In this document: positions 6,385 through 8,237 of the stretch, one piece after another | Numbering within the stretch: position 1 is the first letter of the stretch | Layout: the number at the start of each line of letters is the position of its first letter | DNA from: Synergistes sp. | Lineage (GTDB): Bacteria; Synergistota; Synergistia; Synergistales; Synergistaceae | Assembly (NCBI GenBank): GCA_017537925.1 | Contig: JAFYJW010000058.1 | Coordinates: 1 to 47,359 of the forward strand | Reading direction: 5' to 3' | Length of the DNA stretch: 47,359 nucleotides | The notes under the pieces: model-generated | What the model was told of the DNA's origin: nothing | The model's database searches: none | The model's input: the letters and a program-made list of their open reading frames with translations, nothing else | Translations under genes and position numbers: made by a program

Positions 6385-6413
6385 TTGACAAAAAAAATAT
6401 ATGATAGTAGTAT
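6385..6413 (+). promoter_or_regulatory. promoter of the leader peptide-symporter transcript
   Basis: A perfect -35 TTGACA (6385-6390), a 17-bp spacer and TAGTAT (6408-6413) as -10. The expected transcript starts near 6420, about 45 nt before the ribosome binding site of the leader peptide. Confidence 0.75.
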
Positions 6414-6476
6414 TTTTCCCGTTCAACACGCCGGCTTTGAGCGGCGATGCTTATGTATAAAATGAAGGGGGGCTGC

Positions 6477-6578
6477 ATGATGGGAAAAGCATTTATCAAT
6501 AACCGTTATTATTATTGCTATTATGCTTATCCCCGCATGTATAACGCCCCGGGGCTTTTCGCTGTTTCTTTGAAGTAG
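6477..6578 (+). CDS. tyrosine-rich attenuator leader peptide (33 aa)
   Basis: A short ORF missed by normal gene callers. It has a strong RBS (AAGGGGGG, 6465-6472) 4-7 nt upstream of the in-frame ATG codons at 6477 and 6480. Residues 11-22 read RYYYCYYAYPRMY-like: seven Tyr codons between 6507 and 6542 (6507, 6510, 6513, 6519, 6522, 6528, 6540), all TAT, in only 36 nt. The frame stops at TAG 6576-6578. The last codons (6564-6576) double as one arm of an antiterminator hairpin. This is the layout of amino-acid biosynthetic leader peptides, with Tyr as the sensed residue. An in-frame ATG at 6462 lies before the RBS and is unlikely to be used. Confidence 0.85.
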   Translation: MMGKAFINNRYYYCYYAYPRMYNAPGLFAVSLK

Positions 6579-6610
6579 GCATATCAGCAGAGGAAACTTC
6601 AGAAACCGCG
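6560..6610 (+). promoter_or_regulatory. antiterminator hairpin of a ribosome-mediated attenuator
   Basis: GTTTCT (6564-6569) pairs perfectly with AGAAAC (6601-6606), and GAAGT (6572-6576) pairs with ACTTC (6596-6600), leaving only a TT bulge. Past one mismatch, CGC (6560-6562) pairs with GCG (6608-6610), giving about 14 bp. The 3' arm is exactly the 5' arm of the terminator at 6601-6634, so the two structures exclude each other. A ribosome stalled on the Tyr codons (up to 6542, leading edge about 6557) leaves the arm at 6560-6576 free. One that reaches the stop codon covers it. Confidence 0.85.
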
Positions 6611-6634
6611 CCCGCAGGGGCCGGTTTCTTTTTT
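6601..6634 (+). terminator. attenuator terminator upstream of the symporter
   Basis: AGAAACCG (6601-6608) pairs with CGGTTTCT (6622-6629). A two-base mismatch and a further CCC/GGG extend the stem, and a short GCA loop and six T (6629-6634) complete an intrinsic terminator. It stands 37 nt before the symporter start and between it and its only visible promoter, so transcription of the gene requires read-through. Confidence 0.88.
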
Positions 6635-6671: not shown

Positions 6672-8237
6672 GTGGATCTGTTCATCAAATTAGCGTTGCT
6701 TATCATTTTTGTAGTCGTCATGATACTGGTGGGACTCTACTGCCGCAGGCATTCCACAGATGTAAGCGGCTTCGTGCTCGGAGGGCGCCAGGTGGGACCC
6801 TGGCTTACAGCGTTTGCTTACGGGACGTCATACTTTTCAGCTGTCGTTTTTGTCGGTTACGCCGGCCAGTTCGGCTGGAGGTACGGAATAGCAGCGACCT
6901 GGGCAGGGATAGGGAACGCACTTCTCGGTTCGATGGCGGCCTGGGTCGTTCTGGGACGCAGGACCAGGGTCATGACGCAGCACCTCAATTCGGCAACGAT
7001 GCCGCAGTTCTTTGGGACGCGCTTTGACAGCCAGGCGCTGAAAGTTGCGGCTTCCGCGGTCATCTTTATCTTTATGATCCCGTACACGGCGTCGCTCTAC
7101 AACGGACTTTCGCGTCTCTTCGGCATGGCGTTCGATATAGACTACTCGGTATGCGTTATCGCGATGGCGGTCCTGACGGCGATATATGTCATTGCCGGCG
7201 GATACATGGCGACAGCGATCAATGACTTCATCCAGGGAATCATAATGGTCGTGGGCATTATAGCCGTTATAGTTGCGGTGCTTAACAGCCGCGGCGGTTT
7301 CCTGGCCGCGCTTGACGCGCTCGGAAGGGTAACAGATCCTTCCGTCTCGGCGACGCCGGGAGTATTTGCGTCTTTCTTCGGTCCCGACCCGGTAAATCTG
7401 CTCGGCGTCGTAATACTTACCTCGCTGGGCACGTGGGGGCTTCCCCAGATGGTGCAGAAATTCTACGCTATCACAAGCGAGGAGGCAATCAGCAAAGGCA
7501 CTATCATATCAACGTTTTTTGCGACGGTCGTGGCTGGCGGCTGCTATTTCCTCGGCGGTTTCGGCAGACTCTTCTCGGATGTGGTAAATGTTTCTGTGGA
7601 AGGTTTTGACGCGGTGATCCCGGCTATGCTCTCGGGACTTCCGACCGTCCTGCTGGGGGTGGTCGTGATACTGGTCCTCTCCGCGTCGATGTCGACGCTC
7701 TCTTCGCTGGTTCTCACGTCCAGTTCCACGCTCACTCTGGACTTCCTCAAGGTATGTGTGGACAGGGAAATGAGCGAGAAAAAACAGCTGATAAGCATGA
7801 GGGTGCTCATCGCGATATTCATTGCCATATCGGCGGTCATAGCGATAATACAGTACAATTCGAACGTATCGTTCATCGCACAGATGATGGGAGTATCGTG
7901 GGGCGCTATGGCGGGCGCCTTCCTTGCTCCGTTCCTTTACGGGCTGTACTGGAAGCGCACCACCAAGGCAGCATGTGCTGTGAATTTTATCTTTTCGACA
8001 GTAGTGATGATACTGAACATATTCATCCGCGGCTCATTCCCGGCGATTCTTAAGAGCCCCATCAACGCAGGCGCGTTCTGCATGCTTGCCGGACTTCTGA
8101 TTGTTCCGGTCGTAAGCTGGATCACAAAGGCCCCGGATAAGGAAAAGACGGATAATATGTTTGCCTGCTACGATCGCAAGGTCGTCGTCTCGGTAACGGA
8201 TTCTATAGGCCCGAGAGTTTACGGGGAAAATAAATAG
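6672..8237 (+). CDS. sodium:solute symporter (SSS family), putative tyrosine/aromatic amino acid importer
   Basis: A 521-residue integral membrane transporter with about 13 hydrophobic segments. The SSS pattern is clear: an N-terminal helix, FVLGGRQVGPWLTAFAYGTSYFSAVVFVGY, then GGYMATAINDFIQGIIMV, a LSASMSTLSSLVLTSSSTL stretch (residues around 340-360, sodium-site serines/threonines) and GLYWKRTT near the C-terminus. It resembles the PutP/panthothenate branch, but substrate cannot be assigned by family. GTG at 6672 is chosen because GAAAGGG (6656-6662) sits 9 nt upstream; TTG at 6654 lies on that RBS. The upstream Tyr-codon attenuator suggests expression rises when Tyr-tRNA is uncharged, so tyrosine or a tyrosine-yielding compound is the best substrate guess. 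Confidence 0.9.
   Translation: MDLFIKLALLIIFVVVMILVGLYCRRHSTDVSGFVLGGRQVGPWLTAFAYGTSYFSAVVFVGYAGQFGWRYGIAATWAGIGNALLGSMAAWVVLGRRTRVMTQHLNSATMPQFFGTRFDSQALKVAASAVIFIFMIPYTASLYNGLSRLFGMAFDIDYSVCVIAMAVLTAIYVIAGGYMATAINDFIQGIIMVVGIIAVIVAVLNSRGGFLAALDALGRVTDPSVSATPGVFASFFGPDPVNLLGVVILTSLGTWGLPQMVQKFYAITSEEAISKGTIISTFFATVVAGGCYFLGGFGRLFSDVVNVSVEGFDAVIPAMLSGLPTVLLGVVVILVLSASMSTLSSLVLTSSSTLTLDFLKVCVDREMSEKKQLISMRVLIAIFIAISAVIAIIQYNSNVSFIAQMMGVSWGAMAGAFLAPFLYGLYWKRTTKAACAVNFIFSTVVMILNIFIRGSFPAILKSPINAGAFCMLAGLLIVPVVSWITKAPDKEKTDNMFACYDRKVVVSVTDSIGPRVYGENK

Follow-up and report, generated by a model that had tools for sequence, protein, structure and literature searches.

The element described here lies in a window of 47,359 nucleotides, the whole stretch of DNA that was analysed, from the genome of a Synergistes sp. 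(G000, 100% complete). On the forward strand, a short reading frame rich in tyrosine codons and an intrinsic terminator precede the gene of a sodium:solute symporter, which would be the regulated gene. The features are as follows:

6385..6413, + strand: sigma-70-like promoter (TTGACA-17-TAGTAT), by consensus match only
6465..6472, + strand: ribosome binding site (RBS) of the leader, purine-rich (AGGGGGG), retained as a purine-rich site in homologues
6477..6578, + strand: leader peptide reading frame of 33 aa, MMGKAFINNRYYYCYYAYPRMYNAPGLFAVSLK, which is 100% identical in the congener G002 and has homologues
6507..6542, + strand: control codons, seven Tyr (TAT) in 12, supported by a chance simulation and by the use of TAT and TAC in relatives
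6531..6554, + strand: CCCCG ... CGGGG pairing just 3' of the Tyr run, conserved in two alignments (A1, A3)
6560..6576, + strand: antiterminator 5' arm, within the end of the leader reading frame, from the nascent-RNA fold and an ungapped 28-nt block (6549-6576)
6596..6610, + strand: antiterminator 3' arm, overlapping the 5' arm of the terminator, from the fold and its conservation in G002
6601..6634, + strand: intrinsic terminator (hairpin and U-run), from folding and covariation above control
6672..8237, + strand: SSF sodium:solute symporter of 521 aa, from Pfam SSF, comparison of its start with G002, and phylogeny

The leader ATG at 6477 is preceded by AAGGGGGG, and a second in-frame ATG lies at 6480; the stop codon is 6576-6578. 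The TAT codons start at 6507, 6510, 6513, 6519, 6522, 6528 and 6540. A sequence-only reading of this DNA had reported a leader at 6477-6578 with an RBS and seven TAT codons in 6507-6542, and direct reading of the sequence confirmed these coordinates. At least seven TAY codons within 12 consecutive codons were seen in none of 20,000 first-order Markov sequences modelled on the local 250 nt, nor in any of 60 simulated 47-kb windows. For promoter-like consensus sites, 0.7 are expected on average in shuffled sequences. The SSF domain of the symporter (PF00474) was detected with E = 1.4e-52. A symporter start at TTG 6654 was rejected and replaced by GTG 6672, where G002 has an ATG and a protein of 521 aa.

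The terminator AGAAACCGCGCCCGCAGGGGCCGGUUUCU has a folding energy of about -20 kcal/mol, and its U-run ends at 6634. The RNA from 6558 to 6615, as it stands before the 3' arm of the terminator is made, folds as an antiterminator of -12.8 kcal/mol. The pairs are CGC 6560-6562 with GCG 6608-6610, GUUUCU 6564-6569 with AGAAAC 6601-6606, and GAAGU 6572-6576 with ACUUC 6596-6600. These are exactly the pairs expected from the earlier proposal that 6560-6576 binds 6596-6610 to the exclusion of the terminator. When both hairpins compete at equilibrium, the terminator wins, and the terminator (-20.6) alone is left when a ribosome is placed at the stop codon. Untranslated nascent RNA likewise folds into the antiterminator, which was the minimum-energy structure in each of the seven nascent leaders that were folded. 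The strength of the antiterminator at single loci is mostly unremarkable when set against composition-matched shuffles (p = 0.25 for the window alone and p = 0.09 for G002), while p was about 0.01 for the distant, sequence-unrelated leaders of G012, G040 and G050. The support for the window antiterminator is comparative. In an alignment of the close family, it was found to be paired in 92.9% of the cells, compared with 29-65% when the partners were slid. Compensatory base pairs had been named as a check in the sequence-only reading. In the close family, covariation of the terminator was above the control, whereas that of the antiterminator, with changes from G-C to A-U in G118 and a few other genomes, was not above shuffles. 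The pairing just 3' of the Tyr run is a candidate pause hairpin for RNA polymerase. A search that was not exhaustive gave no clear protector (1:2) hairpin such as that of trpL, which would make an untranslated leader terminate.

Taken together, the window element is very probably a ribosome-mediated transcription attenuator that reads the charging of tyrosyl-tRNA. The leader would be translated by a ribosome during its transcription by RNA polymerase. If Tyr-tRNA is ample, the ribosome is expected to pass the Tyr codons and reach the stop at 6576-6578, where it would cover 6560-6576. The antiterminator would thereby be blocked, the terminator at 6601-6634 would fold, and transcription would end before the symporter. 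When Tyr-tRNA is scarce, the ribosome would stall in the Tyr run and leave 6560-6576 free. This segment could then pair with 6596-6610 as soon as the latter has been made, sequestering the 5' arm of the terminator so that transcription proceeds into the symporter gene. Attenuation of this kind with Tyr as the signal was what the sequence-only reading had claimed, and the claim gains support from codon-swapped paralogues, an exchanged symporter and frame-shifted 3' ends in relatives.

To follow the leader in relatives, pattern scans and a covariance model built from 17 leaders were run over 188 Synergistota genomes. The model returned 22 matches (E <= about 2e-16), with 20 before SSF symporters and two before shikimate dehydrogenase. 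Tyr leaders were found throughout the Synergistaceae and also outside it, in further families of the order. In a tree of 41 SSF proteins, the clade of the window symporter is separated with full support from a second clade, SSF-2. Orthologues of SSF-2 are present in Desulfovibrionaceae too, and at about seven loci of the Desulfovibrionaceae type, a Tyr leader and a terminator precede orthologous SSF-2 operons. Examples are FYYYYSGHRLWAPDRMCCA (Candidatus Bilophila faecipullorum) and TYYYYPDALPRLG (a Desulfovibrionaceae MAG). These leaders look unrelated to those of the Synergistota, and their antiterminators were unconvincing when folding was compared with shuffles. A lack of conservation of the Tyr run, named in the sequence-only reading as a refuting outcome, was not observed: leaders with a Tyr run and a terminator are conserved before SSF symporters throughout the Synergistota and are present in some Desulfovibrionaceae. 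About 30 SSF-2 loci of Desulfovibrionaceae are without a Tyr leader by the criteria applied, and the window symporter's orthologues at L003-L007, from f3 and two f1 genomes, have none directly upstream. Within the window genome, 15 other places with Tyr clusters were checked and a second Tyr leader was not found. Y-runs upstream of dnaN-like genes (L128-L130) were rejected as leaders; they lie in AT-rich DNA with DnaA-box-like repeats.

Both the codons and the genes controlled were found to vary. The second congener, G001, has a homologous leader, MMGKAFVGSSYYYRYYAYPRIYDAPGLFAVSVK, with a probable small subunit and an SSF symporter of another clade behind it, and the same MntR and helicase genes lie downstream in G001 and in the window. 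Judged from these sequences, the leader either stayed in place while its transporter was replaced, or was linked to a new transporter in G001. In both cases, one tyrosine signal would govern two unrelated symporters within the genus. The SSF-2 symporters (L151, L018, L072 and others) are preceded by a hydrophobic protein of about 31 aa, MFGTDLWV..., which is probably a small subunit. The paralogous leader of G016 and G030, MGKALLNKNFYFYWFFTFPRSFDASG[FC]LAFFAK (MGKALLNKN-FYFYWFFTF-PRSFDASG), carries Phe, Tyr and Trp codons where the Tyr leaders have their Tyr run. It keeps the same 28-nt antiterminator block and the terminator, and lies before shikimate dehydrogenase (aroE). This paralogue appears to be a natural codon swap on the same RNA blocks. 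Both kinds occur in G155, where a complete TRAP transporter lies behind a Tyr leader, and aroE, aroD and a TctCBA transporter lie behind an F/W/Y leader. Two further families of this order have Tyr leaders before a gene like that of phenylacetate-CoA ligase (L117 in G040 and L085 in G050), with TIGR02155 as the best match, below its curated cut-off. This ligase could belong to a route in which arylacetates are converted reductively to aromatic amino acids. A wider reading, possible though doubtful, is that of a portable and re-codable attenuator cassette with either Tyr or Phe/Tyr/Trp codons, whose cargo comprises two SSF clades, TRAP, aroE operons and an arylacetate-CoA ligase. Its minimal two-hairpin design would by default be on and be switched off when a ribosome reaches the end of the leader, and it would serve a regulon for aromatic amino acid import across two phyla.

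What the window symporter carries is a separate matter, since substrates of the SSF family are not readable from sequence. Among proteins of solved structure, the nearest relatives are sugar transporters and a putative SSF protein, all of low similarity. The Tyr attenuator could therefore be real while the symporter imports another substrate, such as a peptide, an aromatic precursor or an organic acid. This is compatible with the attenuator but rather unlikely, as Tyr leaders precede members of two deeply diverged SSF clades and also a TRAP system, for which Tyr or a close aromatic compound as the common substrate is the best explanation. The genome, moreover, seems to lack the means of making Tyr: neither PDH_N (TyrA) nor PDT (prephenate dehydratase) was matched in G000, while several relatives and all control genomes gave matches to both domains. 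Judged by its gene content, the source organism probably lacks the usual route to tyrosine or phenylalanine and depends on import; tyrosine import would be needed because these two domains are undetected. Given the leaders and this apparent auxotrophy, the window symporter is most likely a Na+/tyrosine importer.

The attenuator also has to be weighed against a TnaC-like sensor, in which free tyrosine, and not uncharged tRNA, would arrest the ribosome through the nascent peptide and induce the symporter. Induction by substrate would suit the transporter targets, as well as a small reading frame with a Tyr run that lies before a homologue of tryptophanase or tyrosine phenol-lyase (L121 in G035). 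This catabolic target fits control by starvation badly and is left unexplained by the attenuator model. A Y-P-R peptide motif is also conserved in many leaders. However, the leaders hold 4 to 8 Tyr codons in runs instead of one critical residue, and the target of the Phe/Trp/Tyr paralogue is a biosynthetic gene, which should be induced by starvation and not by excess. The 28-nt block, which ends in GAAGU, is ungapped in all but one of 19 close leaders. In G010 and G014, the block is in a different reading frame with its nucleotides retained, and these leaders end in RLGANGVFCEFR and RLGASGVFFEVKSA, respectively, in place of ASGLLVFSAK. The 3' half of the peptide is therefore altered where the RNA is kept, although a sensor of the TnaC type requires a conserved peptide at and before the arrest point. 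In addition, Tyr codons interchange freely, with 96 TAT and 47 TAC counted in the leaders. Because the frame-shifted 3' ends keep their nucleotides and TAT and TAC are switched, RNA pairing is favoured over peptide sensing, which speaks for a ribosome that reads codons and so leaves an RNA arm either free or covered, and makes an arrest peptide highly improbable. The stop codon of the close leaders lies 2 to 14 nt past the block, and given the size of the ribosome footprint, it would always be within the ribosome's reach of the block.

A simple constitutive terminator behind a short translated reading frame, without regulated switching, would be in keeping with the unexceptional strength of the window pairing and the lack of antiterminator covariation, but is the least credible explanation, given phylum-wide Tyr runs with both TAT and TAC, the codon and cargo swaps, and the pattern of identity with G002. 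Between G002 and the window, the RBS and leader are identical at 114 of 114 positions and the antiterminator 3' arm with the terminator at 39 of 39. Identity is 97% in the promoter, 82% in the spacer, 69% in the 5' UTR and 47% in the DNA upstream, and the third codon positions of the symporter are 77% identical. It is because the regulatory blocks are identical while the spacer diverged that a constitutive terminator is disfavoured.

As an attenuator, the window element resembles trpL, hisL, pheL and leuL of enterobacteria in its short leader peptide with a run of regulatory codons, its intrinsic terminator with an overlapping antiterminator, and its proposed control by charged tRNA. It differs from them in its predicted specificity for Tyr, in having transporters as targets, in the lack of a clear 1:2 protector hairpin and in its occurrence in Synergistota and Desulfovibrionaceae. 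TyrR and tyrosyl T-boxes also provide Tyr-responsive control of transport and metabolism; TyrR, however, is a protein repressor, and a T-box is an RNA that binds tRNA directly. No match to the Rfam T-box at the gathering threshold was found in the window. Six T-box matches occur elsewhere in G000 (contigs C21, C53, C10, C71, C7 and C29), so T-boxes and ribosome-mediated attenuation would coexist in this genome. By eye, from their protein sequences, the genes behind them resemble those of an acyl-CoA ligase, threonine synthase, ThrS, an ABC ATPase, an isopropylmalate synthase-like protein and ArgG, with no obvious tyrosine gene.

Among the leader-peptide attenuators of the textbooks, tyrosine leaves, to our knowledge, a notable gap. 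The window element, if confirmed, would fill it and assign a likely substrate to symporter clades that cannot be read from sequence. Codon-swap and cargo-swap pairs would furthermore allow direct tests of the codon specificity of attenuation: Tyr against Phe/Tyr/Trp codons on the same leader RNA, and two unrelated symporters behind the same leader in one genus. We regard it as a known mechanism that has acquired a new specificity, for tyrosine, and that controls a new regulon.

The sequence-only reading had called a Tyr-specific leader unusual. The literature agrees, with two reservations: a suggestion for aroF of Escherichia coli and the noted F/Y upstream reading frames (uORFs) of shikimate genes. 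No Tyr-specific leader-peptide attenuator was found described in a search of openly readable main texts. For aroF-tyrA of E. coli, a Tyr-tRNA attenuator was suggested as a hypothesis (Camakaris 1980, cited in PMC2659441). The proposed sensing of Tyr-tRNA is shared, but the target there is a DAHP synthase. The aroR leader of Corynebacterium glutamicum (Neshat 2014) likewise has aromatic codons (Phe-Tyr-Phe) before an aromatic pathway operon. It is reported in PMC11802643 to respond to limitation of Phe and not to the availability of Tyr, and it controls aroF, not a transporter. F/Y uORFs near shikimate genes were noted in a study that included Thermovirga lienii of the phylum Synergistetes (PMC6429828). 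Its main text gives shikimate targets alone and mentions no Tyr-only leader before a symporter. These uORFs are probably akin to the aroE leaders found here. At L160 (G016:C1:418416) and L161 (G030:C1:3031695), the leader and aroE are followed by genes of TRAP or tripartite tricarboxylate transporters, and these operons perhaps serve the uptake of shikimate or quinate.
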